From NCBI GenBank assembly GCA_028284125.1, contig JANQSI010000010.1:124001-188000 (forward strand): a DNA stretch of 64,000 nucleotides, written 5' to 3'. Under the pieces are notes generated by a model. The model was not told the DNA's origin and ran no database searches. It saw only the letters and a list, made by a program, of their open reading frames with translations. The position numbers and the translations under genes are program-made. This document shows, piece after piece, positions 3,353 to 23,281 of this stretch. Position 1 is the stretch's first letter. Each line of letters begins with the position of its first letter. This stretch comes from Cyclobacteriaceae bacterium. GTDB lineage: Bacteria > Bacteroidota > Bacteroidia > Cytophagales > Cyclobacteriaceae.

Positions 3353-3458
3353 GTATCTTTGGTTAGGTAGTAATAGTTTTTCTTGAGTGTGCTTCTATTT
3401 ATGCTTATTAAAGTAAAATAAAGATCCTAGAGTTACCAGCGTTTTCATAACGAAAACC

Positions 3459-4476: not shown

Positions 4477-4502
4477 TATTATGTGTTTTAAAGGGAGAAG
4501 TA

Positions 4503-4534
4503 GAGCCCGCCTTCACAGTTGCTACGGCGGGCTC
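4503..4534. promoter_or_regulatory. Stable stem-loop between nosZ and the next gene
   Basis: A perfect 9-bp GC-rich inverted repeat, GAGCCCGCC and GGCGGGCTC, closes a 14-nt loop. It lies 18 bases after the nosZ stop and 26 bases before the next start. It is not followed by a T run on the minus strand, so it is less likely a full terminator. It could protect the nosZ mRNA 3' end or attenuate the downstream maturation genes. Confidence 0.65.
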
Positions 4535-4552
4535 GTAACCTAACCAAAGAGT

Positions 4553-6511: not shown

Positions 6512-6537
6512 GATTCTATTTTGTTTAGGTTGAAACT

Positions 6538-7110
6538 TTAATTCGGTAAAATGACTTTGTCCACTACATTGATGATTCCGTTGGAAGTTTGTACAGTTCC
6601 GATGACTTTAGCGCCACCCACTGTTACATCATCACCATCCACCACGACCTCCAAATAGGTTTCATTGGCCATGAAAATTTTTCTTCCTTTTCTAGCCTCT
6701 TTTTTGAGACCTTCAAGGTTAAAAGAGCCAGGGGCCGCATGACCTTTAAGAATCGTAGACAAGGTTTCTTTATTCTCTGGCAACAACAGATTCTCGACTG
6801 TGCCTTCAGGTAGTGCTGCAAATGCGTCATTGACAGGAGCAAAGACGGTTAGTGGTCCCGCATTTACTAAGACATGTTCGATCTGCGCTGCCTGAACTGC
6901 AGCAACTAAAGTGCTATGAGCTTCTGAGCCAATAGCGACTTGCAAAATATTCTTGTCCGATACATCGTCGGAAACCGATGCTTGACCTAGCGGGTGAGTT
7001 TTAGCTCCCTCTGCAGATTCACCGCCAGATGCTTGAGGACTGGATCCGCATGCGCAGAGGATCATGAGGACCAAAGCGATAATTGGGATTTTAATTACGA
7101 TCTTTTTCAT
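6538..7110 (-). CDS. FAS1 (fasciclin) domain lipoprotein inside the nos operon
   Basis: A lipoprotein of 190 residues with the lipobox LCAC (Cys21), a Gly/Ser-rich linker and one FAS1 domain from about 53 to the end. The H1-type motif TVFAPVNDAFAALP and the closing NGIINVVDKVI stretch are both present. FAS1 domains usually mediate adhesion or protein-protein contacts. It lies 26 bp before nosZ and 19 bp after the cytochrome c gene, so all three are co-transcribed. It may hold the cytochrome or NosZ at the membrane surface. That is inference; no enzymatic motif is seen. Confidence 0.88.
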   Translation of the reverse strand: MKKIVIKIPIIALVLMILCACGSSPQASGGESAEGAKTHPLGQASVSDDVSDKNILQVAIGSEAHSTLVAAVQAAQIEHVLVNAGPLTVFAPVNDAFAALPEGTVENLLLPENKETLSTILKGHAAPGSFNLEGLKKEARKGRKIFMANETYLEVVVDGDDVTVGGAKVIGTVQTSNGIINVVDKVILPN

Positions 7111-7129
7111 ATCAAAATTGGTTTGGTTT

Positions 7130-7612
7130 TTATAATGTTCTGAAATATTCTAAGACAGCTCTGGCCTCATCTTCTGTAAGATTTTGATTGGCCATTGGCG
7201 ATCCATTGTATTCGATAAATAGCTTCTTAGCTATTGGATCTTTCTGTACCATTTCTTCTGGGTTAAGGATCATGTTCATGACCCAGGTTGCGGTTCTTCT
7301 TTCCAGAATCCCTTTAGGAGATGGACCTATGAATTTTTTCTCAGCCTTATGACAAGCTGTGCACTTGATATCATAAACTTCTTTCCCGTTAGCAACCATT
7401 TCCTGGTCTATTTCACCAGGTAACGTGAAGTTTTGGATTGGACCAACACCATCGTATGATTGCCAATTTTCATAAGGATCTGCAGGCTCCATTTGTGCTT
7501 GCTCTTTTATCCTATCTGCTGCGCTTTTACCATCTCCACCACCGCAGGAAAACAAGAAAACAGTGAGAGTAAGTCCCATCAGAATAGTCGAAATTTTAGT
7601 TAGGTCTTTCAT
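7130..7612 (-). CDS. Monohaem cytochrome c lipoprotein, likely electron donor to NosZ
   Basis: The 160-residue precursor has a lipobox FSC (Cys23), a CTACH haem motif at 84-88 and a probable axial Met140 in GSPM. This is a single class I cytochrome c domain anchored by lipid. Clade II nos clusters commonly carry small cytochromes thought to bring electrons to CuA. It is the first structural gene of the nos operon, 53 bp after the rrf2 gene. Which quinol-oxidising complex reduces it cannot be seen in this window. Confidence 0.9.
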   Translation of the reverse strand: MKDLTKISTILMGLTLTVFLFSCGGGDGKSAADRIKEQAQMEPADPYENWQSYDGVGPIQNFTLPGEIDQEMVANGKEVYDIKCTACHKAEKKFIGPSPKGILERRTATWVMNMILNPEEMVQKDPIAKKLFIEYNGSPMANQNLTEDEARAVLEYFRTL

Positions 7613-7665
7613 TTTTCTATTATTTAAGAATTTCGGATCGGTATATCTTTAATAAGAAATATTTT

Positions 7666-8088
7666 TTAATTTTTTAAACTATTTTTTCCTTTCAATAGAG
7701 CTTCATCATTCACTCGTGTCGACAGCAAGGACTCGGTCAACTGATTTTTCACCAATAAGAACTTATCATGTACTGGGCAAGGGTTTGCGCTGGAACATTC
7801 ATTAAGTCCTAGTATACAATCATTCAACAAGTGCGTTCCATCGATAGCAACAACAATGTCATGTAAGCGTATCTCCTTCTTGTCATTCAGTATAAATCCA
7901 CCTGATGGTCCACGGAAGGAGAGTAGTAGATCATTTTTAACCAATTGCTGCAAAATCTTGGCTGTAAATGCTTCGGGGGAGGAGATTGCTTCAGTTACCT
8001 CCTTTAGTCCGGTACGTTTACCCTCTTGCTCGTTTGCTGCAATGTAAATCATGATCTTAATGGCATATTCGCACGCTCTTGAAAACAT
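7666..8088 (-). CDS. Rrf2-family iron-sulfur regulator (NsrR/IscR type) heading the nos operon
   Basis: This is a 140-residue Rrf2 winged-helix protein. The N-terminal helix-turn-helix is followed by the GPSGGF wing and a three-Cys cluster motif, C91-x6-C98-x5-C104, close to NsrR spacing. Such proteins sense NO, iron-sulfur status or redox state. Its place just before the cytochrome-FAS1-nosZ genes suggests it controls them in response to NO or N2O respiration. A near-perfect palindrome at 8132-8145 upstream is a candidate operator. NsrR is likelier than IscR by context, but this is not proven. Confidence 0.88.
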   Translation of the reverse strand: MFSRACEYAIKIMIYIAANEQEGKRTGLKEVTEAISSPEAFTAKILQQLVKNDLLLSFRGPSGGFILNDKKEIRLHDIVVAIDGTHLLNDCILGLNECSSANPCPVHDKFLLVKNQLTESLLSTRVNDEALLKGKNSLKN

Positions 8089-8192: not shown

Positions 8193-8206
8193 ATGACATT
8201 CATCAG
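8193..8206. promoter_or_regulatory. Candidate Fnr-like box upstream of the rrf2-nos operon
   Basis: ATGAC-ATTC-ATCAG lies about 105-118 bp before the rrf2 ATG. It shares nine of ten fixed positions with ATGAC-N4-GTCAG upstream of ccoS and uspA-ccoI. A likely binder is the REC-Crp protein encoded at 22235-23281 or another Crp/Fnr protein. Confidence 0.45.
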
Positions 8207-8908: not shown

Positions 8909-10249
8909 CTAAATCGACTTGCTGAATTGTGGTGATTTTCCGGATTCATTGAGACGTGCATCAAATGCACTACAGATTATTCTGAGGATTTCTTTCCCTT
9001 CGGACAACACTTTGACTCCATCTTTTTTTAGTTTGATGAATCCTTCATTTTCAAGTTGCTCTAGTAAGTCAAAATTGGTAGAAATACCAAAGCTCAAGAT
9101 TTCATCTTCGGTCCATGTGGTTTCGAAATTGCACATCAGATTCAAGATTTGTTTTCTGATGAAAAGATCCTTGCTGGTCAATAAATGGCCTTTCGTGATT
9201 GGTAACTGTCCAGAATCGAGTATTTCGTAATAGGATTCGACGGTCTTGGCATTTTGAGCAAAACCTGTCCATGAATCGCTAATTGCACTGACGCCCAATC
9301 CTACTAAAAGCTGACTTGAGAATGGCGTGTAACCCATGAAGTTGCGATGTAATTCTCCATTTTTCCGAGCTAATAGTAGTTCGTCGGTACGCTTCACAAA
9401 GTGATCCATGCCCACTTCTTCATATCCCGATTCCTTTAATCGTTCTTTTCCAAACTGCATGAAGGCTAGCTTTTCTTCGGAAGCTGGCAAGTACTTTTCA
9501 TACGACTTTTGTGCTGGTTTCATGCTAGGAACATGGGCATAGCTGTAATAGGCGATTCTATCTGGTGACAATGAGATAACCTTATCCAATGTCTCATCTA
9601 GTGAAGCCAGTGATTGTCCTGGCAGCCCATAAACCATGTCAAAGTTGACTGAAGTGTATCCGATTTTTCTGGCTTCATCAGTCACTTTTTTTACCTGCTC
9701 AAATGTTTGTAATCGATTAATCAGCTTTTGAACATTTAAATCAAAATCTTGTATCCCAAGACTCAAACGATCAAAACCCTGCTGTTCTAGTACTTTTAAA
9801 TGCTTGAGTGTTGTATTTGCCGGGTGTCCTTCAAAGCTCATGCTTATTGATGGAGAAATTTTAGCTTTTTCAATAAGTCCGCCGATCAACCTTTCCAGGT
9901 TTTCAGGTGAGAAAAAGGTAGGTGTTCCACCTCCAAGGTGAATCTCTCGAATGATTGGAGCGTCTGGAAGTTTTTCTAAATAGAGATCCCACTCTTTAAG
10001 CAAGTGATTGATGTAAGGTTCTTCAACCGAGTGATTCTTTGTAATTCTGGTGTTGCAAGCACAATAGGTACACAGGCTTTCGCAAAATGGGAGGTGAATG
10101 TAAATACTGACTTCTTTATTGCTTAACCAGAACGCCGTTTGAATTGATTGTTCATATCCTTCCAGTGTAAAATCTTCGGAATTCCAAAATGGGACTGTAG
10201 GATAACTCGTGTATCGCGGGACAGGAACGTTGTATTTTTTGATATCCAT
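8909..10249 (-). CDS. hemN: Oxygen-independent coproporphyrinogen III dehydrogenase, radical SAM
   Basis: HemN decarboxylates coproporphyrinogen III to protoporphyrinogen IX without oxygen, supplying haem under low O2. The 446-residue length and the radical-SAM motif FCESLCTYCAC (CxxxCxxC plus the extra Cys typical of true HemN), with YIHLPF just before it and GGGTPTF after, identify it. A HemN C-terminal domain is present. An Fnr-like palindrome lies 56-69 bp upstream of its start, matching its use in microaerobic growth. The gene sits between the nos and cco clusters, both of which make haem proteins. Confidence 0.95.
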   Translation of the reverse strand: MDIKKYNVPVPRYTSYPTVPFWNSEDFTLEGYEQSIQTAFWLSNKEVSIYIHLPFCESLCTYCACNTRITKNHSVEEPYINHLLKEWDLYLEKLPDAPIIREIHLGGGTPTFFSPENLERLIGGLIEKAKISPSISMSFEGHPANTTLKHLKVLEQQGFDRLSLGIQDFDLNVQKLINRLQTFEQVKKVTDEARKIGYTSVNFDMVYGLPGQSLASLDETLDKVISLSPDRIAYYSYAHVPSMKPAQKSYEKYLPASEEKLAFMQFGKERLKESGYEEVGMDHFVKRTDELLLARKNGELHRNFMGYTPFSSQLLVGLGVSAISDSWTGFAQNAKTVESYYEILDSGQLPITKGHLLTSKDLFIRKQILNLMCNFETTWTEDEILSFGISTNFDLLEQLENEGFIKLKKDGVKVLSEGKEILRIICSAFDARLNESGKSPQFSKSI

Positions 10250-10318: not shown

Positions 10319-10339
10319 TGAATATGATAAAAATCAGGA

Positions 10340-11020
10340 CTATAATCCGCAGATAGTGATGAGTCCAGCGGCTTTTGCCTGTACTAGCTGGTTGAAATTG
10401 GGGGAGGAGATAAGAAATCCACGAATGATTAGTAGACTTCCAGATAAAATTGCGATGAATGAAATTGCTCCAGGAATCAGTTTCCTCAGTTTCTGAGAAA
10501 CGATTGTACCTCCGATAGTCACCAGTAATAAAGCTGGAACTGTGCCGAGCCCAAATAACAACATGAACAAAATGCCTTCAGAAAAGCCTCCGATTGCAAT
10601 CGCGCTTGCAGCCGCAACGTAGGTAAGACCGCAGGGCAAAAATCCGTTAGCCATGCCGCTGAAAATCCATCTTTTTCTCTTAGAGATGCTATTGGATAGT
10701 TTCTGTTTGACAAATCGATAGAAGTTGGATTGATAATAGAATCGTTCTAGACGATTTCTGAAATTTGGTATGCCATACAGCAGGAGTAAGGTGATGCCAA
10801 GAAAGAAAGTTACAAACTGTTGGGTTTGAAACATTTGCAGAGAGTAACCAAGCGCTCCCAACAGAATACCAAGAAGTGCGTACGAAAGAATTCTACCACT
10901 ATGGTATAACGAGAATGCAGTAGCTGATCTATGTTGTCCCATCGCAAAAAGTGTCAGCGGCCCACACATACCAACGCAGTGTAAGCTTCCAACAAATCCT
11001 ATGACGAGAGCTGCGATCAT
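10340..11020 (-). CDS. TauE/SafE-type membrane protein of the cbb3 oxidase operon
   Basis: A polytopic membrane protein of 226 residues with about six helices. It carries HCVGMCGP near the N-terminus and NGFLPCGLTY in mid-protein, typical of the small TauE/SafE-DsbD-like family found next to ccoH in Bacteroidota and other phyla. The Cys and Met residues suggest a role in copper handling for oxidase assembly, inferred from position. The ATG at 11020 overlaps the ccoH stop by ATGA. An upstream TTG at 11071 would add a non-typical polar leader, so it is not preferred. Confidence 0.88.
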   Translation of the reverse strand: MIAALVIGFVGSLHCVGMCGPLTLFAMGQHRSATAFSLYHSGRILSYALLGILLGALGYSLQMFQTQQFVTFFLGITLLLLYGIPNFRNRLERFYYQSNFYRFVKQKLSNSISKRKRWIFSGMANGFLPCGLTYVAAASAIAIGGFSEGILFMLLFGLGTVPALLLVTIGGTIVSQKLRKLIPGAISFIAILSGSLLIIRGFLISSPNFNQLVQAKAAGLITICGL

Positions 11021-11445
11021 TTGAGTAGAATTTTCTCTTGTTGGAAGTACTCTTTTCCATCTGACTTCCATGTAATGTTGACTCGATAATTGCCGGCAAT
11101 CAGTTTATCCCTATCAACGACTTGTTGATTTTCAGGATCGATAGCTATCGCAATCTTCTTGTCGAATAATTTTCTAGAAGGATGGTAGAAATGAATTTCG
11201 CCTTCTGGTTTTTGATCCTTAGGAAAAACCAAAACAATGGATTTCTCATTTAAAGCCACAGAAACTTTTTGGTCTAGTTTTCTGAGGTTTTCTTTTTGCT
11301 CAATTTTCTTTTGATAACCGATCTCTTGAGCATAATAATCTTCAGCTACCAGGTCGTTGTTTTGCTGAAATGCAATTACCACCATGTAAAGGATGAATCC
11401 TGCAAAAAAGACAAATGCGACTACAATTCTATTTCCCCAATTCAT
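11017..11445 (-). CDS. ccoH: CcoH/FixH, cbb3 oxidase assembly protein
   Basis: FixH/CcoH is a single-pass membrane protein needed for stable assembly of cbb3 oxidase and associated with CcoI-dependent copper delivery. The 142-residue product has one N-terminal helix (about 8-27) followed by the family motif EDYYAQEIGYQ and a periplasmic beta-rich domain. It is followed, with a four-base overlap, by the TauE/SafE-like gene. A gap of about 80 bp rich in AATTA repeats separates it from ccoG. Confidence 0.92.
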   Translation of the reverse strand: MNWGNRIVVAFVFFAGFILYMVVIAFQQNNDLVAEDYYAQEIGYQKKIEQKENLRKLDQKVSVALNEKSIVLVFPKDQKPEGEIHFYHPSRKLFDKKIAIAIDPENQQVVDRDKLIAGNYRVNITWKSDGKEYFQQEKILLK

Positions 11446-11526
11446 ATTTTTTCAATTACGAGTTTTCAATTATTAATTACGATTTTGTTTGACTTCAATT
11501 AATTCGTAATTCTTCATTCTTAATTA
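11446..11526. repeat. AATTAC/GTAATT-rich intergenic repeat between ccoG and ccoH
   Basis: The 81-bp gap holds repeated TTAATTAC and its inverted form GTAATT in several copies, with poly-T stretches. Similar low-complexity inverted repeats are common between genes in Bacteroidota. It could form weak hairpins within the oxidase transcript. No gene was seen in it. Confidence 0.5.
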
Positions 11527-12954
11527 CTATTTCGCTGGTCCCAAAAACTTCGTTTTCACTTTCTCAACCATCTCGTCACCGGAAAAAACTCCAATGGAAA
11601 TCTGAGAACTCATTTTCTCAAGATCATCCGGGTGAATGGCTACAAAAAAAGCGCCCTCACCAATTCCTTGCTCTTGTAATTGAATAGCGCTTCCAACAAG
11701 TTCAATTGAACCTTTTGGTTCTATTAACTCAAGTCGAACATCCATTGCAGTATTCGTCTTGTTGACCATTTTTAGCTGGTATAAGTTAGTGATTAATCCA
11801 TCTTCTCGTTCTTGGAACATCATTCCGGGAGTTCGCAGTATGGTGGTTTCGAAATCCGATCGAATGATGAGAAGAGAAACCAATACTCCTGTTAAAACGG
11901 TTAAAACAGCAGTGTAGGCCTTCATTCTACCTGTGAATTTGAAAGGAAGTTTGTCGGCGATGTTTTGCTCAGATGCGTATCTAACCAAACCTCTAGGTTT
12001 TCCAATTCGATCCATAATCGAATCACAAGCATCGATACACGCTGTACAGTTTACGCACTCCAACTGTGTTCCGTTTCGGATATCGATTCCCGTTGGGCAG
12101 ACATAAACGCACTGTTTACAATCGATACAATCGCCTTTCCCAACCGCTTCTCGGTCTTCGTTCTTTCTGAATTTACTTCTCGTTTCACCTCTTTCATGAT
12201 CATACGCTACTACAATGCTTTGGCGATCAAGAAGTACACCCTGAAGTCTTCCATATGGACAAATGGCGGTACATACCTGCTCACGCATTTTGCTGAAAAC
12301 ACCGTAGAATAATCCTGTCATCACAATCATGGCTATAAAACCACCAGTGTTTTCCACCGGTCCCTCGTCGATGATCTGCCACATCTTTTCGATCCCGACC
12401 AGATAGGCCATGAACGTGTGCATGATAATCGCACTGACTAGTACAAACAGAAAGTGTTTACTGATTTTCTTGGCTGCTTTTTCTCGATTCCACGGCATCT
12501 TGTCTAGCTTTTTCTGAGCCATGTAATCTCCTTCGATCCAATATTCAATTTTCCTGAAGACTCCTTCCATGAAGATGGTCTGAGGACAAATCCATCCACA
12601 AAAAATTCTTCCAAAGACAACTGTGAAGAGAATGATGAAGACAACTGATGTAATCATACCGATTACAAACAAGAAGAAATCCTGAGGCCAGAAAACTTGA
12701 CCGAAAATGATAAATCGTCGCTCGAGAATATCGAGGAGGAGTAGGGGCTGTCCGTCTATTTTTATGAAAGGTCCACCAATCAGAACGATCAATAAGAAAT
12801 AACTGACCAGGTTTCTGTAATTAGTGAACCTTCCTTTAGGTTTTTTAGGGTAGACCCAAAGCCTTTTCCCTTTTTCGTCCATCGTAGCGAGATGGTCTCG
12901 AAAGGTCTCTTCTGCTACGTCCTGCTCCTCATATAGGTCTTTTACTTCTGCCAT
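11527..12954 (-). CDS. ccoG: CcoG, cbb3 oxidase accessory polyferredoxin
   Basis: CcoG is a membrane iron-sulfur protein that reduces Cu(II) during cbb3 oxidase biogenesis. The 475-residue protein has helices in its first half, with FCGWICP near 118-124 and CTAICP near 228-233. Two 4Fe-4S motifs follow, C276-x2-C279-x2-C282-x3-C286 and C300-x2-C303-x2-C306-x3-C310. A further helix and a C-terminal periplasmic immunoglobulin-like domain complete the family layout. ATG at 12954 is chosen over TTG at 12957. It overlaps the ccoP stop by one base (TGATG). Confidence 0.95.
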   Translation of the reverse strand: MAEVKDLYEEQDVAEETFRDHLATMDEKGKRLWVYPKKPKGRFTNYRNLVSYFLLIVLIGGPFIKIDGQPLLLLDILERRFIIFGQVFWPQDFFLFVIGMITSVVFIILFTVVFGRIFCGWICPQTIFMEGVFRKIEYWIEGDYMAQKKLDKMPWNREKAAKKISKHFLFVLVSAIIMHTFMAYLVGIEKMWQIIDEGPVENTGGFIAMIVMTGLFYGVFSKMREQVCTAICPYGRLQGVLLDRQSIVVAYDHERGETRSKFRKNEDREAVGKGDCIDCKQCVYVCPTGIDIRNGTQLECVNCTACIDACDSIMDRIGKPRGLVRYASEQNIADKLPFKFTGRMKAYTAVLTVLTGVLVSLLIIRSDFETTILRTPGMMFQEREDGLITNLYQLKMVNKTNTAMDVRLELIEPKGSIELVGSAIQLQEQGIGEGAFFVAIHPDDLEKMSSQISIGVFSGDEMVEKVKTKFLGPAK

Positions 12955-13883
12955 CAACTACCCGCATTGGCAACAGAATCTGCTGGAGCCACCGTCTCTT
13001 CCACACGCTCGAATAATTCACCTTGAGCTTCCTTAGGGTTAGCTGAAGGCTGGCCTTCCATGTTGTAGATGTAGCTGGCCACTTGCTGCATTTTCTTAGG
13101 TGGAAGTTGAGATTCCCAAGAAATCATTCCTTTTTCAGGCACACCATATTTAATGGTGCTAAATATGGATTTCATATCTCCTCCGTGGATCCAGTATTTA
13201 TCGGTGAAGTTAGGGCCTACACCACCTCCACCATCATTGGCGTGGCACACGGCACAGTTTGCATCATAGATAGCTTTACCGGCAGCAATGTCAACGCTTT
13301 CTGTGAGTAAAACGACAGAGTTTTCGTCGACTAAATTGTCCAGTGAGGCAAGATATAGCTTCACTTTTTCGTCAGCCTCTTGCATTTCTGTTAGATACTC
13401 TTCTTCCTGACTCATACCTGTACCTATCACGTGATAGTTGATCAAATAAGCGACTCCAAATAAGATGGTGAAATAGAACCCATATAGCCACCAGGAAGGA
13501 AGCCTGTTGTCCAACTCACGGATTCCATCGTACTCATGGTCAGTGACTACCGATTCTTCTTTTGCAACCGGAACAGCCTCATGGAATCGATTCCAGAAAC
13601 GTCCCCAGAAGTCCAACCCTTCCTCACCTTCTCTCGCTTTGATCAGTTCTGTCTCTTCCTCAACTCCATCTTCAGCGAGCTTCATTCGTAGCATTGTTTT
13701 CATCGCTACTAGCAATGTATACATGGCAATAACTGCGACCAGACAAACAACAACTGCAAGTCCTAAGACAATTTCAACTTGATATAGCTCAAGAAAACTT
13801 TTGGCAGGAGCTTCATCCTGTGCCATCGTTAGGCCAGGGAATACAAAGGTTAATGTCAATAGTATGTATTTAAGCTTATTCAT
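12954..13883 (-). CDS. ccoP: CcoP, cbb3 oxidase cytochrome c subunit with a single haem
   Basis: CcoP passes electrons into cbb3 oxidase. The 309-residue product has an N-terminal signal or helix (4-20), a helix at about 36-60, a FixP-type helix at about 131-150 (DNRLPSWWLYGFYFTI) and one CAVCH haem site at 210-214. Classical proteobacterial CcoP has two CxxCH sites, and only one is present here. The ATG at 13883 is preferred to an upstream start at 13955 because it begins the signal sequence and overlaps ccoQ by eight bases. The C-terminus is an acidic, probably flexible tail. Confidence 0.93.
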   Translation of the reverse strand: MNKLKYILLTLTFVFPGLTMAQDEAPAKSFLELYQVEIVLGLAVVVCLVAVIAMYTLLVAMKTMLRMKLAEDGVEEETELIKAREGEEGLDFWGRFWNRFHEAVPVAKEESVVTDHEYDGIRELDNRLPSWWLYGFYFTILFGVAYLINYHVIGTGMSQEEEYLTEMQEADEKVKLYLASLDNLVDENSVVLLTESVDIAAGKAIYDANCAVCHANDGGGGVGPNFTDKYWIHGGDMKSIFSTIKYGVPEKGMISWESQLPPKKMQQVASYIYNMEGQPSANPKEAQGELFERVEETVAPADSVANAGS

Positions 13884-14061
13884 GATCAGTTGAATTTGAG
13901 TCAAGTGGAATGTTTGAAATTTTGTCGAACACCTTCTTGTCGGTTTTGAAGACATAAATGGTTAGGCCGACGAAGAAGACAAAAAAGATGACGAGGGAGA
14001 TTAGCGGATATATATCAATACCCGCGATTGTCTCCATATGATGTTTGATAAATTTTAGCAT
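13876..14061 (-). CDS. ccoQ: CcoQ/FixQ-like small subunit
   Basis: A 61-residue single-helix protein (about 18-39) located between ccoNO and ccoP, the usual place and size for CcoQ, a small stabilising subunit of cbb3 oxidase. The sequence is too short and variable for a firm call without context. It begins 5 bp after the ccoNO stop and overlaps ccoP by eight bases. Confidence 0.8.
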   Translation of the reverse strand: MLKFIKHHMETIAGIDIYPLISLVIFFVFFVGLTIYVFKTDKKVFDKISNIPLDSNSTDHE

Positions 14062-14066
14062 GATTT

Positions 14067-16241
14067 CTATTTATTGGAGATCTCCTCTGATTTTTTAATG
14101 TCTGTTCCAAGTCGTTGCAAGTAGGCAATAAGTGCTACTATTTCAGTATCCGGATTCACCCGAAGACCTTCAGTTGCAAGTCCATCCGAAATACCTTTGG
14201 CTTGAGATTCTGCATCCGATAGGGCTTGATTGTCATATCCTTCAGCGTATGGCACCCCAAGCGTTTGCATTGCTCTGATTTTGGCTGGCAGCCTGTCTTT
14301 ATCCCAGGTCTGTTCGAAAAGCCAAGGGTAAGGTGGCATTATTGATCCTGGGGACATACTTTCAGGTTCGAGCATGTGGTAGAAATGCCAGCTGTCCGGA
14401 TATTTCCCACCAATTCGATGAAGGTCAGGTCCAGTTCTCTTAGATCCCCACTGGAACGGGTGATCGTAAACATATTCTCCTGCCTTCGAGTATTCCAGGT
14501 CATTGGGATCGTAACGCATTACCTCAGACCGGAATGGTCGAATCATCTGAGAATGACAGGTATAACAGCCTTCTCTTACGTAAATGTCTCTTCCATTTAG
14601 TTCTAGTGGAGTATAAGGTTTTACACTTGAGATCGTAGGAACGTTAGACTTTACAAGGAAAGTAGGAATGATTTCAATTGCACCTCCAATTGCAACTAAC
14701 ACTAAACTGAAAACGAGCATTCGAACCGGTTTCCATTCGAAAATTTTTCTATGCCAGTGCTCTGATTCAGCAGGTTTGTAATCTTTCTCTAAAGGAGCTG
14801 CTTCTGCTTTTACTTCGCGAATCAGGCTTCCAGCTTTGGCAGTCTTGATCAAGTTGTAAACCATAATGAAGACACCTGCTAAGTACAATACGCCACTGAA
14901 TGCGCGTAATGCGTACATTGGAATGATCTGCGTAACAGTTTCAAGGAAATTGCTGTAGACCAAAGTGCCGTCTGGGTTGAATTGTTTCCACATCAAACTT
15001 TGGGTGAAACCGGCCCAGTACATTGGTAGCGCATAAAAGATGATTCCCAATGTACCTATCCAGAAGTGTGCATTTGCAAGTTTTTGAGAGTGGAGTTTAG
15101 TGCCGTACAGTTTTGGAATCAAGTAGTAAAGCATAGCGAAAGTCAAGAATCCATTCCATCCTAACGCCCCAACGTGTACATGAGCAACAACCCAATCCGT
15201 GAAGTGGGCGATTGCGTTCACACTTTTTAGTGACATCATTGGTCCTTCGAAAGTCGACATACCGTAACATGTGACCGCAACGACCATGAACTTAAGTGTT
15301 GCACTTTCTCTTACTCTATCCCATGCGCCTCTCAATGTCAGAAGTCCGTTTAGCATACCACCCCAGGATGGAGCGATTAGCATGACGGAAAATACAACAC
15401 CTAATGACTGTGCCCAATCTGGTAAAGCATTATATAGTAAGTGGTGTGGACCTGCCCAGATATATATAAAGATCAACGCCCAGAAGTGAACAATCGAAAG
15501 TCGGTACGAATAAATGGGACGTCCCGAAATCTTAGGAATGAAATAATACATCAAACCTAGGTATGGTGTAGTAAGGAAGAATGCCACAGCATTATGGCCG
15601 TACCACCACTGTACGAGAGCATCTTGTACTCCTGCGTACCAGGAATAGCTTTTCATGAAATCAATAGGCAACTCAATTGAGTTGACAATGTGAAGCATGG
15701 CTACTGTCACGAATGTCGCGATATAAAACCAGATAGCTACATATAAGTGTCTCTCACGTCTCTTAATGATCGTCATGAACATGTTAAGACCGAACACTAC
15801 CCAAATTAGAGCGATTGCTATATCAATTGGCCATTCTAGCTCAGCGTACTCTTTTCCACTGGTAAGACCGAGTGGTAAAGTGATTGCTGCAGCAAGAATG
15901 ATTATTTGCCAGCCCCAGAAATGGATTTTGCTCAGTGTATCACTGAACATTCGGGTTTTACATAAGCGCTGAAGAGAGTAGTAGACTCCAGCAAAAATTC
16001 CATTTCCGACAAATGCAAAGATCACTGCGTTTGTGTGTAGTGGTCGAACCCTTCCAAACGTCGTATACTGAAGGCCAAAATTGGCTTCAGGCCATACAAA
16101 CTGAAGCGCGACCAGCAAACCAACGGTCATTCCCACCACACCAAAAACAGTAGCTGCGATAAGGAAATTTCGAACGGTGGTATTGTCGTAGTAAAAAGTA
16201 TCCTGTCCGGTACTTAATTCTTGTTCGTTGTTTTCTGACAT
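14067..16241 (-). CDS. ccoNO: Fused CcoN-CcoO, cbb3-type cytochrome c oxidase subunits I and II
   Basis: The catalytic core of a high-affinity terminal oxidase, in which the haem-copper subunit CcoN and the cytochrome c subunit CcoO form one 724-residue chain. The CcoN part (about 20-470) has multiple helices, a haem ligand in RPLHTN (H69), the CuB/Tyr region WWYGHNAV, GPHH and VAHVHVG with the haem ligands. The CcoO part (about 500-715) has a helix and one CYTCH haem site at 559-563 followed by SQMIRPF. This fusion is normal in Bacteroidota. It is the second gene of the cco operon. Confidence 0.97.
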   Translation of the reverse strand: MSENNEQELSTGQDTFYYDNTTVRNFLIAATVFGVVGMTVGLLVALQFVWPEANFGLQYTTFGRVRPLHTNAVIFAFVGNGIFAGVYYSLQRLCKTRMFSDTLSKIHFWGWQIIILAAAITLPLGLTSGKEYAELEWPIDIAIALIWVVFGLNMFMTIIKRRERHLYVAIWFYIATFVTVAMLHIVNSIELPIDFMKSYSWYAGVQDALVQWWYGHNAVAFFLTTPYLGLMYYFIPKISGRPIYSYRLSIVHFWALIFIYIWAGPHHLLYNALPDWAQSLGVVFSVMLIAPSWGGMLNGLLTLRGAWDRVRESATLKFMVVAVTCYGMSTFEGPMMSLKSVNAIAHFTDWVVAHVHVGALGWNGFLTFAMLYYLIPKLYGTKLHSQKLANAHFWIGTLGIIFYALPMYWAGFTQSLMWKQFNPDGTLVYSNFLETVTQIIPMYALRAFSGVLYLAGVFIMVYNLIKTAKAGSLIREVKAEAAPLEKDYKPAESEHWHRKIFEWKPVRMLVFSLVLVAIGGAIEIIPTFLVKSNVPTISSVKPYTPLELNGRDIYVREGCYTCHSQMIRPFRSEVMRYDPNDLEYSKAGEYVYDHPFQWGSKRTGPDLHRIGGKYPDSWHFYHMLEPESMSPGSIMPPYPWLFEQTWDKDRLPAKIRAMQTLGVPYAEGYDNQALSDAESQAKGISDGLATEGLRVNPDTEIVALIAYLQRLGTDIKKSEEISNK

Positions 16242-16269
16242 GGATCGTTAGGTTTTGTAGATTTTATAT

Positions 16270-16467
16270 TCATTTTTTCCTTTGAGATGTTTCCATTTTA
16301 TTGTTGCTCTTGGGCTCCTTTAACTCAGGATCGTCTTCAAAGAGCATGCGGACAGAAGGAGTGTAGTCATCCTCAAACTGGCCAGATTTGGAAGCCCATA
16401 GAAAAGCTAAAAGGAACCCAGTGGCCAATAGTAAACTGCATGTTATAAGAATGAATATGACACTCAT
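16270..16467 (-). CDS. ccoS: CcoS, cbb3 oxidase assembly protein
   Basis: CcoS is a small membrane protein needed to insert cofactors into cbb3 oxidase. The 65-residue product has one helix (about 3-25) followed by WASKSGQFEDDYTPS, close to the family motif WAxxxGQFDDxxxP, and a polar C-terminus. It is the first gene of the cco operon and lies 28 bp before ccoNO. An Fnr-like palindrome is centred about 72 bp upstream. Confidence 0.93.
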   Translation of the reverse strand: MSVIFILITCSLLLATGFLLAFLWASKSGQFEDDYTPSVRMLFEDDPELKEPKSNNKMETSQRKK

Positions 16468-16532
16468 GATCTCGTGGAGACAAGATTAGATGAGTAGTCA
16501 AGTTTGTATGATGAGCGCCGTTAGTGGGGGAT

Positions 16533-16546
16533 ATGACTTTTGTCAG
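16533..16546. promoter_or_regulatory. Fnr-like box upstream of the ccoS operon
   Basis: ATGAC-TTTT-GTCAG lies 66-79 bp before the ccoS ATG on the opposite strand. The same ten fixed bases occur as ATGAC-AGAT-GTCAG (minus strand) upstream of uspA-ccoI at 20528-20541. Spacing and symmetry are those of Crp/Fnr-family sites. Confidence 0.6.
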
Positions 16547-16639: not shown

Positions 16640-16723
16640 TTACTGGAAAAATCATTTATCATCCTGATGCGGGTCATTCATTGCGATTAACTGCACCTGT
16701 AGTTTTACCACAAATAATGAGCT

Positions 16724-17114: not shown

Positions 17115-17128
17115 TTGATTAAGATCAT
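17115..17128. promoter_or_regulatory. Fnr-like box upstream of hsp20
   Basis: TTGAT-TAAG-ATCAT begins 8 bp after the stop of the preceding gene and 93-106 bp before the hsp20 ATG. Half-sites are identical to the hemN box. The distance is rather long for direct activation. Confidence 0.5.
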
Positions 17129-17676: not shown

Positions 17677-20049
17677 TTAACCACCAATTTCTTTACCCAA
17701 ACGACTTACGAAAAGAGTAACAAACCCAACTACGGTTACGGAGCTTATTGGCATCAAAATGGCCGAAACCAGAGGAGTAAGATGACCAGTAACTGCAAAA
17801 GATAATCCTACTATATTGTATAGAAAAGAAATGCCAAATGCGATAAAAACAATGGAGATTACCTGTCTAGAAAACTTAAGGATTTTTGGGATTTTGGTAA
17901 TCCCGTCAGAACTGAGAATCGCGTCACATGCAGGAGAAAACTGATGGATGTCCTCAGATATAGCTATTCCTACATCGGCTTTTTTAAGAGCTCCTGCATC
18001 ATTCAATCCATCTCCAATCATTAGTTGGTGCCCATCATTTTGAGAGAGAAATTCAAGTTTATTTGCAGGCTTTTGATTGAAATGCATCTCATCAAAAAAG
18101 GACTGAAGACGTATTTTTTCTGAATTGTTATCTCCAGAAAGCAGTTTGAGTGTAAATTTTCTTTTTAGCTCCTTCAGCATTTCAAATACGTTGATTCTGT
18201 ACTGAGAAGGGATAGAAAAGTATCCTAGATAGTTGTCAATGCTGATATGAACCTGGGACTCATTGGGGGTTTCTTCCACTTCTACCTCCAAATAATTGGC
18301 AGATCCTACCTTAACGATTTGTCCAAAAATTTCGGCAGAGAATCCTTTGCCTGTTTCTTCATAAAAGGAGGTAATTGGAACTTTCTCGCAATCCGGAAGT
18401 GCTTGATAAATCAACCTGCTAAGAGGGTGTGCAGAATTCGAAAGCGCTGACTTCAATAAATACACGTGTTCTCTGTTCAATTCAGGACCGACAAATGTAA
18501 CTCTTGATTCGTTCGTCGTGAGCGTACCGGTCTTGTCAAAGATGATAGTATCAGTTTTCGAAAGCGACTCTACGATTTCCGCATTTTTTAAATAGAGCTT
18601 ATTCTTTCCAAACACGCGCATTGCATGACCATAGGCGAACGGAAGTGTAAGTGCCAGGGCACAAGGACAAGCAACAATTAACACTGCCGTGATTGCATTC
18701 CATGTAACAGTTGGATCTGTGTTCCACCAATAAACACCGGTTCCTGCTGCGATTAGTATGATTGAAAGTGTGAAGTATTGACTGATTTTGTCAATCCATG
18801 TCGCAAGGTTTTTTTCTTTTTTTCTAAAGACATCACTGTTCCAGAGTTGCGTCAACTCGCTGTTATTCACACTTTTATCCAGTTGAATAACTAACTCATT
18901 TCCTTTTTGCCTACCGCCTGCAAATACCAGCTGACCTTTTTGTTTTTGATCAGGTTTAGATTCTCCGGTCACGAAGCTGTAGTCAATGTTGCCATTGCCT
19001 GAGATAATTTTTCCGTCGGCAGGAATCAATTCATCATTATGCACAATAACAATATCACCCTTGCGAAGGTCTTTGAGTGGTCGTTGAAATTCTTGATCAT
19101 CAATCAAGCAAGTGATTGAGACTGGAAAGTAGGAGGTATAGTCTCGCTCAAAAGAAAGTGCTTGATATGTTTTTCCCTGGTACCATTTTCCGATCAAAAG
19201 AAAAAAGACCAAACCTGCTAAAGAATCGACATATCCAGCTCCGGTTTGTGTCAAAATCTCAAAGAGGCTTCTTCCAAAAAGGGCCGCGATTCCCAAAGCG
19301 ATTGGTACGTCGATGTTTAGATTTTTATGTGTAATACCTTTCCAGGCTTTAATGAAGTAATCGCTTCCGGAATAGAAAAGTATTGGAAGCGCAAGTGCCA
19401 GGTTAATCCATCCAAAGAGATGTTTAAAATCCTCTGTCAAAAGAGAATTCCGATCAAGGTACTCTGGCATACTCATTAGCATTGCATTACCAAAGCAAAA
19501 TCCGGCAACAGCTATCTTAATTCCAATGTTTGATTTAGCTACATGTTCTTTGGTCTTATCGAGACTTTCTAGTGAAATATCAGGAGGGTAGCCAAGCTGT
19601 GAGAGAAGAATAGCTACTTCTTTCAAAGATCTTTTCGTATGATCATACGAAATGGTGACTTCCCTCTTGACGAAATTCACCTCAGCTCGAACAATACTTT
19701 TTTCAAGTTTCGGTAAATGCTCTAAAAGGTAAATGCAAGAGCTACAGTGAATACCGGGTAAGAAAAACTTAATAACTGAAAGCGTTTCACTTCTAAACTT
19801 CAGCAGTTGTTTTTGAATATCTTCATTATCTAGGAAACCGTACTTACGTTCTCCCTTTAATTCAGACCAAGATCGGTTCTCTAATGAAGTTTCCGAATAA
19901 TACTTATCTAGTCCACTTGTCTCAAGAAGCTCATAAACTGCCTTGCATCCATAACAACAAAATACCTCGTCATTGTTAATTATTGATTCATCGCAAGGAT
20001 CTCCACAATGACTACAAGTAGTGTTGTTCAGAATTTCAACGCTTGACAT
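17677..20049 (-). CDS. ccoI: CcoI/FixI-type copper-translocating P-type ATPase
   Basis: A P1B-type ATPase of 790 residues that moves copper across the inner membrane for cbb3 oxidase assembly. The N-terminus has a Cys-rich CSHCGDPC...CCYGC module (12-35), followed by a heavy-metal-associated domain with GIHCSSC (about 99-105). Catalytic landmarks are CPC at 461-463 in the membrane, phosphorylated Asp505 in DKTGTLT, TGES near 371-374 and GDGLNDAGAL near the C-terminal end of the P domain. It begins one base after the uspA stop and lies on the far side of hsp20 from the cco operon. Confidence 0.95.
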   Translation of the reverse strand: MSSVEILNNTTCSHCGDPCDESIINNDEVFCCYGCKAVYELLETSGLDKYYSETSLENRSWSELKGERKYGFLDNEDIQKQLLKFRSETLSVIKFFLPGIHCSSCIYLLEHLPKLEKSIVRAEVNFVKREVTISYDHTKRSLKEVAILLSQLGYPPDISLESLDKTKEHVAKSNIGIKIAVAGFCFGNAMLMSMPEYLDRNSLLTEDFKHLFGWINLALALPILFYSGSDYFIKAWKGITHKNLNIDVPIALGIAALFGRSLFEILTQTGAGYVDSLAGLVFFLLIGKWYQGKTYQALSFERDYTSYFPVSITCLIDDQEFQRPLKDLRKGDIVIVHNDELIPADGKIISGNGNIDYSFVTGESKPDQKQKGQLVFAGGRQKGNELVIQLDKSVNNSELTQLWNSDVFRKKEKNLATWIDKISQYFTLSIILIAAGTGVYWWNTDPTVTWNAITAVLIVACPCALALTLPFAYGHAMRVFGKNKLYLKNAEIVESLSKTDTIIFDKTGTLTTNESRVTFVGPELNREHVYLLKSALSNSAHPLSRLIYQALPDCEKVPITSFYEETGKGFSAEIFGQIVKVGSANYLEVEVEETPNESQVHISIDNYLGYFSIPSQYRINVFEMLKELKRKFTLKLLSGDNNSEKIRLQSFFDEMHFNQKPANKLEFLSQNDGHQLMIGDGLNDAGALKKADVGIAISEDIHQFSPACDAILSSDGITKIPKILKFSRQVISIVFIAFGISFLYNIVGLSFAVTGHLTPLVSAILMPISSVTVVGFVTLFVSRLGKEIGG

Positions 20050-20050
20050 T

Positions 20051-20476
20051 TCAAGTGTAATTGTTAGGAATTACTAGTATTGGAGTATCACTTAGCTCAA
20101 TTAGTTTTTTTGTATGACTACCTGGAGAATTGTCCTCACCGCTGCTGTTAACGCCTACAATTACTAAGTCATACGCATGCTTTGCAGCAAAATCGATCAA
20201 CTGCTGTTCAATATTCCCCGACACAACAAGGTTGTTAATTTTGGTACTTTCATCCTTGCGCAGATCTTCGCTGAGCTTTATCATGTTTTCTTTCACTTCA
20301 TTCAATTTTGGTATCAAATTGTCAGTACCACTCTCATTGGAAAACCTAGAGGCAACGGGGTAGATGTGTAAAATGGAAATTTCACATTGATATTGATCAC
20401 TAAGATCTATACCAACTTCAACAGCCCTCCACGCAGCAGGCGAGAAATCTGTAGGTATGAGTATATGAGTAAACAA
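20051..20476 (-). CDS. Universal stress protein, UspA family
   Basis: A 141-residue single UspA domain. It starts with THILIPTDFSPAAWRA and ends with the nucleotide-binding motif GVNSSGEDNSPGSHTKKLIEL followed by TPILVIPN, close to the ATP-binding G-2x-G-9x-G-S/T pattern. A TTG at 20476 is used as start because the first beta strand begins directly after it and no ATG fits. It is one base from ccoI, so both form an operon. Usp genes are often induced with low-oxygen regulons. Confidence 0.9.
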   Translation of the reverse strand: MFTHILIPTDFSPAAWRAVEVGIDLSDQYQCEISILHIYPVASRFSNESGTDNLIPKLNEVKENMIKLSEDLRKDESTKINNLVVSGNIEQQLIDFAAKHAYDLVIVGVNSSGEDNSPGSHTKKLIELSDTPILVIPNNYT

Positions 20477-20527: not shown

Positions 20528-20541
20528 CTGACATCTGTCAT
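20528..20541. promoter_or_regulatory. Fnr-like box upstream of uspA-ccoI
   Basis: On the minus strand the site reads ATGAC-AGAT-GTCAG, with half-sites identical to the ccoS box. It is 52-65 bp upstream of the uspA start. It also lies about 100 bp upstream of the divergent histidine kinase gene. Confidence 0.6.
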
Positions 20542-20639: not shown

Positions 20640-21938
20640 ATGAAATTAAATAGCGAATATCTTATGTCTGGAAAAGGACGAGAACTTTTAGGTCAGTTGT
20701 TTCACAACTCCGGGGAAGGAATTATGCTTTTTAGTAAAAAAGGTGTGATAGAAATGTCTAACCCCAGGGCATTGGAAATGTTTGGCTATTCTGAAGATGA
20801 ACTTATGGGACGAAAAGTGGAGGATTTGGTGCCAAAAGGTTCACGATCCAAACATGAAGTTCATCGAAATGAATACATGAAAAACCCATCACCACGTTCA
20901 ATGGGACAAGGACTTGATTTAAAGGGAGTTAGGAAGGATGGGTCCATGTTTCCTGTAGAAATTAGTCTGAACTACCTAAGTCATCAGAATGAAACGATGA
21001 TTGTTGCTTTCGTGACTGACATTACCATCCGAAAAGAGAGCGAACGAGTGGTTGAAGAACAGCAAAAAAAGCTAGCTGAATATGCCGATGAATTAGAGAA
21101 AAAGGTAAGATCTAGAACCAGGGCACTTGAGCAAATGAATTTGGGATTGAAGAGCCAGATTCAAGAGCGGAAGCTTGCAGAAAATGCATTGAAAAAGAGC
21201 CTCGATGATCTAAAAAAGGCAGAACAAGAAATTTTGGCTTCACTTGAACGTGAGAAGGAGTTGGGGCAAATGAAATCCAGGTTTGTTTCTATGGCTAGTC
21301 ACGAGTTCCGTACTCCACTAACCACGATCTTATCCTCTGCAAATTTGATTGGAAAATATGCGGAAAGTGATCAGCAATCTTCGCGAGAAAAACACATCAA
21401 ACGGATCAATAAAAGTGTTCAAAATCTGACCGGGATATTGAATGATTTTCTTTCCATGGAAAAATTGGAAAGTGGTGTTATAAAAATTGAAGTGAAGGAG
21501 TTAGACTTGGAGCCGCTGGTGATAGAGGTATGTGAGCAGTTGGAAGCCGCATTGAAAAATGGTCAGAAGATTGAACTCAAAAGTGAACCTGCGACTATTC
21601 GTTCTGATGATCACATCATTAGAAATGTTTTGATTAACCTAATTTCCAATGCGAGTAAATACTCATCCGAAGGCGATCCCATTGAAGTAAGTGCGCTTGT
21701 GGAAGAAAATGACGTCTGTCTGAAGGTGGTAGATCATGGAATTGGGATACCAGAGGAGGAACAGAAGAACCTATTTGAACGATTCTTTCGAGCGGATAAT
21801 GTGACGAATATTCAAGGAACAGGTCTTGGACTCAATATTGTCAAAAAGTATGTTGAATTACTTGGTGGAAAAATTGAGTTCGAAAGCAAAGAGGGTGTAG
21901 GAAGTACTTTTTGTGTGCGGATTCCGCTAGCGTTTTGA
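20640..21938 (+). CDS. Soluble PAS-domain sensor histidine kinase
   Basis: A 432-residue kinase with no membrane helix. A PAS domain lies at about 15-130, a coiled coil at 133-215, the HisKA helix with phosphoacceptor H221 in SHEFRTPL, and an HATPase domain at about 315-430 with DHGIGIP and GTGLGLNIV. The PAS domain is FixL-like in pattern, including a His72 that aligns by eye with the FixL haem ligand. The FixL Arg after GIG is Leu here, so haem binding is uncertain. The neighbouring REC-Crp regulator (22235) is the likely partner. A cytosolic redox or oxygen signal is inferred. Confidence 0.93.
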   Translation: MKLNSEYLMSGKGRELLGQLFHNSGEGIMLFSKKGVIEMSNPRALEMFGYSEDELMGRKVEDLVPKGSRSKHEVHRNEYMKNPSPRSMGQGLDLKGVRKDGSMFPVEISLNYLSHQNETMIVAFVTDITIRKESERVVEEQQKKLAEYADELEKKVRSRTRALEQMNLGLKSQIQERKLAENALKKSLDDLKKAEQEILASLEREKELGQMKSRFVSMASHEFRTPLTTILSSANLIGKYAESDQQSSREKHIKRINKSVQNLTGILNDFLSMEKLESGVIKIEVKELDLEPLVIEVCEQLEAALKNGQKIELKSEPATIRSDDHIIRNVLINLISNASKYSSEGDPIEVSALVEENDVCLKVVDHGIGIPEEEQKNLFERFFRADNVTNIQGTGLGLNIVKKYVELLGGKIEFESKEGVGSTFCVRIPLAF

Positions 21939-22106
21939 AAGAGACTTTCTGAGGAAGAAGTAAGCAAGTGGACCTACTATAGGTACGAGAATAACAATAG
22001 GGTACCAGATAAGCCTCACTTTCTGGGGATAACTTCTCAAAGCAAGATCTACCATAGCAAAAATTGCGACAGAAGCTCCAACAATTCCTATAATTATCAA
22101 GTCCAT
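21927..22106 (-). CDS. Small PLDc_N-type membrane protein
   Basis: A 59-residue protein with two helices (about 3-20 and 35-53). It follows the pattern of the PLDc_N (phospholipase D nuclease N-terminal) family of stand-alone small membrane proteins, with RLIWYPIVILVPIVGPLAYF as the signature. The ATG at 22106 is chosen; an upstream start at 22190 would add a polar extension reaching into the regulatory region. Its end overlaps the histidine kinase gene tail to tail by 12 bases. Function is unknown. Confidence 0.7.
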   Translation of the reverse strand: MDLIIIGIVGASVAIFAMVDLALRSYPQKVRLIWYPIVILVPIVGPLAYFFLRKSLSKR

Positions 22107-22154
22107 GATGTAACTATTTTGGTGACAAGTTGGCGTTATAAATGTAGATCGATA

Positions 22155-22190
22155 ATGACACAACTCAGTGATAATCATGACATTTCTCAA
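22155..22190. promoter_or_regulatory. Two degenerate Fnr-like boxes upstream of the REC-Crp gene
   Basis: ATGAC-ACAA-CTCAG (22155-22168) and ATGAC-ATTT-CTCAA (22177-22190) share the left half-site of the ccoS box and differ in the right half. They are 22 bp apart, two helix turns, and 45-80 bp before the ATG at 22235. This suggests autoregulation but the sites are imperfect. Confidence 0.35.
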
Positions 22191-22234
22191 ACATAACCCC
22201 TTGGATATGATTAATTTGCTGACAAAAATTAGCT

Positions 22235-23281
22235 ATGAATAAGAAGGCCGTTTTAGTAATCGAAGATCAAGAAGATGTAAGAGATAACATTGCTGAATTA
22301 CTGGAGCTTTCTAACTACAATGTAATCAGTGCACCCAATGGTAAGGACGGAGTAAAAAAAGCCTTGGAATTACCTCCTGACCTAATTCTTTGCGACATAA
22401 TGATGCCGGAAATGGATGGTTATGAGGTATTGTATCTTTTGTCAAAGAATCAATCCACAGCGTCTGTTCCTTTTATCTTCTTAACGGCGAAAGCAGAGAA
22501 AACAGACTTTAGAAAGGGGATGAATATGGGTGCGGATGACTATATCACCAAGCCATTTGAAGAAATCGAACTGCTGAGTGCCATTGAGAGAAGAATACAA
22601 CGGCATGAAGCACTTTCTAGCTCTACTGAGATCGATGAATTCGTTAGTTCTGCCAAAAAATATCACAGCATCGGCGACCTTGATAAGGAACGAAAAACGA
22701 GGACCTTTAAAAAGAAGGATATCATTTATCGTGAAGGTGATTTCGGATCTTATGTTTATAAAATCAAGAAAGGGAAAGTAAAAACGTACAGAATTAATGA
22801 GGACGGAAAGGAGCTGGTTCACGACCTCTTAAAGGAAGGTGATTTTCTTGGCGAGAGAGCTGTAATTCAGGATGACACGCGTACCGAATTTGCGGAAGCC
22901 ATGGAAGAAACTGAATTGATCTTAATTCCGCGATCTGATTTTCAAGAACTTATTTTTGGAAATAGGGAAGTCTCGGCACAGTTTATCAAGCTGTTATCAA
23001 AGAACCTTTCGGAGCGAGAACTTGAGTTGATGGAAATGGCATACAATACCGTCCGAAAGAGGACTGCTGACAGCTTAATGAAGCTATACGATACATATAA
23101 AAAGAGTGATCCAGTTGTAAGCTTCGAAATTTCCAGGGCAGACCTTGCCGGAATGGTAGGTACAGCTACAGAATCTGTTATCCGAATTTTATCTGAATTT
23201 AAAAAGGACAATTGGATTGAGATCAATGGAAGTACCATTTCCGTTCTGGATGCTGATAAAATCAAGGAGGTTAAATACTGA
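22235..23281 (+). CDS. Response regulator fused to a Crp/Fnr-type DNA-binding module
   Basis: A 348-residue regulator with a receiver domain (5-120; acidic pocket E10-D11, phosphoacceptor D54 in LCDIMMPEMDG, K106 in TKPF). A cyclic-nucleotide-binding-type beta-roll follows at about 160-245 (YREGDFGSYVYKIKKGKVK), then a long dimer helix and a Crp-type HTH near 300-335 (ISRADLAGMVGTATESVIRIL). No Cys cluster of the Fnr type is seen in the beta-roll, so oxygen sensing is probably by phosphorylation. It merges the roles of FixJ and FixK in one chain. The upstream kinase at 20640 is the likely partner, and Fnr-like boxes nearby are likely targets. Confidence 0.93.
   Translation: MNKKAVLVIEDQEDVRDNIAELLELSNYNVISAPNGKDGVKKALELPPDLILCDIMMPEMDGYEVLYLLSKNQSTASVPFIFLTAKAEKTDFRKGMNMGADDYITKPFEEIELLSAIERRIQRHEALSSSTEIDEFVSSAKKYHSIGDLDKERKTRTFKKKDIIYREGDFGSYVYKIKKGKVKTYRINEDGKELVHDLLKEGDFLGERAVIQDDTRTEFAEAMEETELILIPRSDFQELIFGNREVSAQFIKLLSKNLSERELELMEMAYNTVRKRTADSLMKLYDTYKKSDPVVSFEISRADLAGMVGTATESVIRILSEFKKDNWIEINGSTISVLDADKIKEVKY

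Follow-up and report, generated by a model that had tools for sequence, protein, structure and literature searches.

In rhizobia, FixL phosphorylates FixJ, FixJ induces fixK, and FixK binds the anaerobox TTGAT-N4-ATCAA (PMC7888657). In Bradyrhizobium, FixK2 also drives the nos genes (PMC5582078), and in Rhizobium leguminosarum a two-component route (hFixL-FxkR-FixK) and an Fnr route (FnrN) share one box (PMC7888657). Among the Bacteroidota, cbb3 and heme enzymes are described as strongly induced when oxygen is limiting, in a transcription-start map of Flavobacterium psychrophilum; the part of that report available to us names no regulator for it (PMC9723704). Here we describe a pair of genes, encoding a soluble PAS histidine kinase and a response regulator in which a receiver domain (REC) is fused to a Crp-type DNA-binding module (REC-Crp), that lies next to cbb3 genes in a 64,000-nucleotide (nt) stretch, the window, of contig JANQSI010000010.1 (positions 124,001 to 188,000) from assembly GCA_028284125.1 of a marine Cyclobacteriaceae bacterium. 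This source genome, G000, is an Ekhidna-like Cytophagales genome of 4.55 Mb in 23 contigs, and the nearest species-named relative among the matches listed is E. lutea. With a probability of about 0.72, the kinase phosphorylates REC-Crp, and REC-Crp then takes the place of Fnr as activator of the low-oxygen regulon. We found no description of a REC-Crp regulator of cbb3 in the open-licence literature searched; other literature may hold one.

Both open reading frames (ORFs) were confirmed in the ORF list and translations at the coordinates given in an original prediction made from the letters of the window, and each of their domains scores above its Pfam cut-off. The kinase (432 amino acids, positions 20640..21938, plus strand) consists of PAS at about residues 19-136 (Pfam match 26-129), HisKA at 211-279, and HATPase at 325-430, and its H-box is intact, with the phospho-acceptor His221 in SHEFRTP. 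The regulator (348 amino acids, 22235..23281, plus strand) contains Response_reg at residues 6-118, cNMP_binding at 156-240, and HTH_Crp_2 at 276-345, and the recognition helix of its Crp helix-turn-helix is GTATESVIRILSEF. Its REC has the acidic pocket, phospho-Asp, Thr/Ser, and Lys of a two-component receiver; in an alignment of 25 proteins, D11, D54 (the phospho-Asp), and K106 are invariant and T84 is nearly so. A structure model (predicted local distance difference test [pLDDT] 78.5, predicted template modeling score [pTM] 0.58) contains REC, a low-confidence linker at 129-145, the Crp fold, and a long dimer helix. The earlier claim that the regulator is without an Fnr-type Cys cluster was borne out, as the translated Crp half contains no Cys, and gaps or T, K, I, or S occupy the six Cys columns of the alignment. 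FixJ is a REC with a LuxR-type output. That output is missing in REC-Crp, where it is replaced by cNMP_binding and HTH_Crp_2, and the NCBIfam FixJ model matches only residues 3-134, below its cut-off. Nor is the protein a FixK, a stand-alone Crp/Fnr activator, since its Cys-free Crp half is joined to REC.

The kinase and REC-Crp together are a common Bacteroidota module. At least 575 genome-contig stretches encode REC-Crp relatives, and the best 80 of these serve below as the named loci. Seventy-nine of them have Bacteroidota titles; the other, L042, is a draft titled Rickettsiales that is 69% identical to the query, and its title is taken to be a mislabelling. In a draw of 247 genomes from the phylum, 38 gave a REC-Crp match at an E value of 1e-60, all of them in the class of the source genome. 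A kinase with an intact H-box is encoded directly upstream of REC-Crp in 65 of the 80 named loci (2 others are cut by a contig end), and these pairs overlap in 44 cases, have gaps of less than 60 nt in 16, and larger gaps in 5. The window is therefore an exception in its wide gap: 296 nt separate the two genes and hold a small PLDc_N gene on the opposite strand (87 amino acids, 21927..22190, minus strand) that lies outside the circuit, so that the pair forms no obvious operon there. Linkage to cco or hemN is recurrent: of the 39 loci that have full 10-kb flanks, 20 have one or the other within 10 kb, and in 20 of the 51 genomes holding both REC-Crp and ccoNO the two lie no more than 15 kb apart. 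The island of cbb3, hemN, and nos genes that had been proposed around the pair was identified in the window, where ccoS, a fused ccoNO, ccoP, ccoG, ccoH, hemN, nosZ, nosL, and nosD all lie on the minus strand to the left of the pair, at distances from the kinase of 4 kb (start of ccoS), 10 kb (hemN), and 14 kb (nosZ). Elsewhere, genome G007 contains a REC-Crp-like gene fragment with stops (C7:362430-362672), and a second copy, which is intact, lies about 8 kb away.

The island genes had also been said to carry Fnr-like boxes, and this proved right for one pattern of Fnr geometry only. The window shows no enrichment of the plain Fnr pattern TTGA-N6-TCAA, with 82 matches at up to one mismatch compared to 72 ± 7.5 in shuffles, 13 of 100 of which reach 82. 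The pattern TGAY-N4-RTCA is enriched (16 matches; shuffles, 7.3 ± 2.9, none of 100 reaching 16), and 9 of its 16 matches are intergenic in a window whose intergenic share is 7.9%. Box discovery was by enumeration of all palindromes made of two 5-nt arms around a 2- to 10-nt spacer, 9 of 10 arm bases being matched, in upstream regions taken from the named loci and from Ekhidna-group stretches. The top palindrome was GTGAC-N4-GTCAC upstream of ccoNO (8 of 13; expected, 0.2) and CTGAC-N4-GTCAG upstream of Usp genes (6 of 13; expected, 0), and ATGAC-N4-GTCAT was joint top upstream of the kinase (14 of 49; expected, 0.4). The relaxed form TGAY-N4-RTCA was then tested upstream of ccoNO in other genomes, none of the test stretches being 97% or more identical to any discovery locus. 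In those with REC-Crp it was found in 12 of 15 ccoNO upstreams, one of the 15 being only 231 nt long, compared to a mean of 0.70 and a maximum of 4 over 200 shuffles.

The boxes also keep two preferred distances from a -7-like element, defined as TAnnTTTG with one mismatch allowed. Among the 39 boxes of the ccoNO set, window included, the element lies at 51 nt in 15 and at 29 nt in 10, over a background averaging 0.5 per position with a next value of 2; the two peaks comprise 10 and 4 of the 19 boxes from genomes with REC-Crp and 4 and 6 of the 16 from genomes without it. A retest in the named loci, which had not entered this spacing count, gave 93 of 359 boxes at 51 nt and 88 at 29 nt, with a mean of 7.7 per distance and a next value of 22 at 52 nt, and the reversed control box, with 44 occurrences, fell once at each of the two spacings. 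In G000, TGAC-N4-GTCA alone had to be set aside as a genome-wide marker, its 54 matches per strand equaling the control. The box combined with the -7 spacing exceeds the control (15 versus 3 and 26 versus 9), and part of the G000 site list is chance, because the reversed controls give those 3 and 9 matches. In F. psychrophilum the -7 element is mapped at -12 to -5 (PMC9723704). Boxes at 29 nt and 51 nt are therefore centered at -41.5 and -63.5. For a Crp/Fnr activator, such centers correspond to class II and to near class I, respectively.

The pairing and synteny, both conserved, together with the enriched box and its activator-like spacing, point to a PAS kinase with a REC-Crp partner in a cbb3, hemN, and nos island, with phosphorylation as the likely input of the regulator, as had been suggested. 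In response to low oxygen, or to a redox signal linked to it, the cytoplasmic PAS kinase would phosphorylate D54 of REC, and phosphorylated REC-Crp would bind TGAY-N4-RTCA boxes centered near -41.5 or -63.5 and bring RNA polymerase to promoters that have a -7 element. Computation establishes the domains, the pairing, the synteny, the box with its spacing, and a partial exclusion of Fnr; from these we infer the phosphotransfer and the identity of the signal. The predicted targets are the cbb3 oxidase, Usp with a copper-type ATPase, hemN, hemA, the nos genes, and Hsp20, and REC-Crp would take the role at these boxes that in related Bacteroidota probably falls to a stand-alone Cys-type Fnr.

Genomes without REC-Crp mostly encode Fnr as a separate protein, which has CxxC and additional Cys. 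The commonest recognition helix of this Fnr, GTATETVIRLLSEF, is nearly the same as that of REC-Crp. The box, of TGA-N6-TCA type and enriched at predicted targets, recurs with the same spacings in genomes that lack REC-Crp, and in other genomes Fnr has the same place beside cco. REC-Crp differs from Bacteroidota Fnr in having REC instead of the Cys cluster and in its place in a quick tree, where a branch with 100 support splits the REC-Crp set from the Fnr set, support being by the Shimodaira-Hasegawa-like approximate likelihood ratio test (SH-aLRT) only, without bootstraps or a clade test, in a tree that includes no rhizobial protein. In this tree the Crp halves of REC-Crp group together, next to the Fnr proteins of Bacteroidota, and a long-branch group of L148 type falls among the REC-Crp rows. 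The tree also contains a clade (99 SH-aLRT) of Fnr-helix proteins that have neither a Cys cluster nor REC, from loci L129, L191, L194, L154, and L216. Among 43 relatives with ccoNO, 18 have REC-Crp only, 19 Fnr only, 4 both, and 2 neither (p = 2e-6, or 8e-5 counting Ekhidna once, a correction beyond which these values ignore the tree); a looser definition of Fnr would shift three of these genomes to "both," G014 and G052, where a Crp protein with CxxC is more distant, and G018, which has an Fnr-helix protein without Cys. In a set of 90 genomes, the 15-kb surroundings of ccoNO contain REC-Crp in 20 cases and Fnr in 22, and in no case both (expected, 4.9; P = 0.0016, or 0.004 with one Ekhidna), some linkages being hidden by contig breaks.

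Several results weigh against REC-Crp as a substitute for Fnr acting under a dedicated kinase. The mutual exclusion is weaker in 47 further members of the class, where Fnr was called by E value only (19 with REC-Crp only, 12 with Fnr only, 10 with both, and 6 with neither; p = 0.04). Of the co-occurrence with cco clusters for which a survey had been proposed, the linkage given above was found, but at the genome level the presence of ccoNO is independent of REC-Crp (ccoNO occurs in 22 of 29 genomes that have REC-Crp and in 21 of 30 that do not), so only the linkage to cco and the relation to Fnr are informative. Thirteen of the 80 named loci are without an adjoining kinase ORF by our filter, although one of them, L065, has kinase-like sequence beside REC-Crp. 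In the palindrome enumeration, upstreams of hemN (n = 27) ranked other patterns on top. TGAY-N4-RTCA also occurs in 14 of 20 ccoNO upstreams from genomes without REC-Crp (shuffle mean, 1.0; maximum, 4), and the box therefore belongs to the promoter and not to one regulator type. In two draft genomes, G012 and G015 (L235 and L236), cco is present with the box, yet no REC-Crp or core Fnr was found; another box reader and assembly gaps are candidate explanations.

The presence of the box in genomes without REC-Crp also bears on the possibility that another Crp-family protein, such as the Cys-less C21:22037 of G000, binds the boxes while the nearby pair controls something else. Three more Crp-type proteins are encoded in G000, which favors such a reader, and one Crp protein of G006 has a partly similar helix, GIRVETVIRTVKQL; both facts count against our proposal. 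However, the three other G000 proteins carry different recognition helices (GTARESLGR, GTSRQTVTT, and GTAREVISR), and among the HTH_Crp_2 proteins read in five Ekhidna-group genomes (G000, G003, one-contig G005, G006, and G007, two weak G007 matches excluded) the GTATE helix is restricted to REC-Crp proteins. C21:22037 itself (L147) is Fnr-like, with the helix GTARESLGR, and is found in G000, G003, and G004 and not in G005 or G006; its type is absent from the five HTH_Crp_2 proteins of G005, a genome that keeps the boxes. Furthermore, 167 of the 181 spaced boxes in the named loci have a downstream ORF, most commonly D-2-hydroxyacid (lactate) dehydrogenase (21 loci), the kinase (18), Usp (17), REC-Crp (14), and ccoNO (8), so that the kinase and REC-Crp genes are themselves often first after a correctly spaced box. 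We consider a different reader unlikely and infer that REC-Crp binds the box.

The PAS domain of the kinase is closest to the FixL heme PAS in both sequence and fold. Seven of the eight solved-structure sequences matching it at 1e-8 are FixL, and its best 14 fold matches are all heme PAS domains, 13 of them FixL, for a model with a pLDDT of 90 whose alignment itself includes FixL-like relatives. This raises the possibility that the kinase is a true FixL with a heme PAS that senses O2 directly, making the pair a functional FixL with a fused FixJ/FixK, an alternative that we regard as tenable, at somewhat less than even odds. H72 of the window kinase aligns gap-free to the heme ligand H200 of BjFixL (taking the heme-pocket residues to be numbered H200, R206, and R220), but Leu stands for Arg220 and Glu for Arg206. 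In the paired kinases, His200 is kept in 73 of 86 and all three residues in 26 of 86, 21 of these 26 being Daejeonella, Pedobacter, or Mucilaginibacter by title. That survey used a hidden Markov model, which detected no PAS in 9 of the 86; a motif pass and a first PAS alignment had missed kinases with other layouts. In 16 unpaired PAS domains from the same loci, the His occurs in 12 and Arg220 in 7, and the His was therefore dropped as a heme marker because it is not diagnostic. Since 26 of the 86 kinases keep all three FixL residues and the window kinase keeps only the His, part of the family may plausibly sense O2 directly, and heme in the window kinase, unlike in FixL, is only putative.

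A further alternative is that the Crp half is still gated by a cyclic nucleotide and that REC merely modulates it. The Pfam match to cNMP_binding is good. The cAMP receptor Crp has a conserved phosphate-binding Arg/Ser, and the window protein has Arg-Thr at what we take to be the position of that phosphate-binding loop. The Arg-Thr is not conserved among 25 members of the REC-Crp family, whereas the phosphorylation residues are, and ligand gating therefore appears improbable.

The pair resembles FixL-FixJ-FixK (or FixK2) in having a PAS kinase, a receiver, and an Fe-S-free Crp-type activator, with low-oxygen cbb3 genes (in Bradyrhizobium also nos) and TGA-N6-TCA boxes. Unlike in that cascade, the receiver and the Crp activator here are one chain, without a FixJ-type output, and unlike in the FixK anaerobox (PMC7888657), the outer T is depleted in the Bacteroidota box, where T makes up 12% at that position in the 181 spaced boxes. 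The R. leguminosarum system is similar in that two-component and Fnr routes share one box, but its response regulator induces fixK (PMC7888657), whereas REC-Crp would bind the box itself. The condensed FixL/FixJ/FixK circuit of the original prediction is thus a fair description of function. As a statement of descent, a shortened rhizobial cascade is unsupported, because the Crp halves group beside Bacteroidota Fnr, in the tree without rhizobial proteins. By analogy, the kinase and REC-Crp would work like the rhizobial cascade minus one step, as members of neither the FixJ nor the FixK family.

The predicted targets in the window begin with the operon nearest the pair, comprising Usp (20051-20476) and a P-ATPase (17677-20049) named CcoI by family and position (operon 17677..20476, minus strand). 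It is faced by box TGACATCTGTCA (20529..20540, minus strand) and an exact -7 element, TAGTTTTG (20498-20505), at 29 nt, and this site recurs at the same spacing in all seven Ekhidna-group loci containing that stretch, window included. The other window sites have one mismatch each. The operon of ccoS (16300-16470), the ccoNO fusion, ccoP, ccoG, ccoH, and a DsbD-like protein (10340..16470, minus strand) is faced by box TGACTTTTGTCA (16534..16545, minus strand) with TAATCTTG (16481-16488) at 51 nt; the site is present in all four Ekhidna-group loci that include this stretch, the window among them, and G005, G006, and G007 share its spacing and -7 element. Toward hemN (8909..10249, minus strand), box TGATAAAAATCA (10325..10336, minus strand) stands 51 nt from CAATTTTG (10272-10279), again at the same spacing in four of four loci (window, G005, G006, and G007), and a second box lies at 10306-10317. 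The cluster Rrf2, cytochrome c, FAS1, nosZ, nosL, nosD, nosF, and nosY (646..8088, minus strand), in which nosZ is of the Sec type and nosF and nosY are named by position only, is faced by box TGACATTCATCA (8194..8205, minus strand) with TATTTTCG (8163-8170) at 29 nt. This nos site is not kept in G006 and G007, where none was found before Rrf2; G005 has a comparable site upstream of FAS1.

Three further spaced boxes lie on the plus strand. Box TGATGCGGGTCA (16665..16676), with TAGTTTTA at 29 nt, faces ORF 16724-17107, whose 127-amino-acid protein has no Pfam or NCBIfam match, and the site has the same spacing in G005 and G007. Two matches stand side by side in locus L037. Box TGATTAAGATCA (17116..17127), with GACTTTTG at 51 nt, faces an Hsp20 gene (17221-17637), and box TGATCAAAGTCA (5..16), with TACATTTA at 51 nt, faces a cysteine-dioxygenase-like gene (79-627). 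Outside the window, G000 has 33 hits; the adjacent gene was annotated for 8, three of them without a family. Genes preceded by a spaced site there are hemA (two copies), a two-domain Usp, a pyridine-nucleotide-disulphide oxidoreductase, and PPK2. The Usp site lies just left of the window (C14:123937-124001, L288); its box and its -7 element, at the 51-nt spacing, are both exact. The two hemA paralogs, at C7:52828 and C14:121216 (L281 and L284), have the box at the 29-nt spacing, with one mismatch each in the box or the -7 element.

As judged from sequence, the kinase and REC-Crp form a conserved two-component route that probably leads to the microaerobic regulon in many Bacteroidota. A broader model, for which we see the chances as evenly balanced, is that one microaerobic code (TGAY-N4-RTCA at -41.5 or -63.5) is served by two readers interchangeable by lineage, Fe-S Fnr or a kinase-driven, phosphorylated REC-Crp, and that the REC-Crp route, with a FixL-type heme PAS in the Sphingobacteriaceae, is the single-step evolutionary counterpart of rhizobial FixLJ-FixK. 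For cbb3, heme, and N2O-reductase genes, the analysis offers a concrete box together with a promoter geometry. If our reading of the pair is true, it would identify the regulator of low-oxygen genes in much of a phylum on whose oxygen control we found little in the open-licence literature searched, and one regulon would have been kept while its sensor was exchanged between an iron-sulfur cluster and a phosphorelay. It would also bear on when bacteria with Sec-type NosZ switch on N2O reduction.

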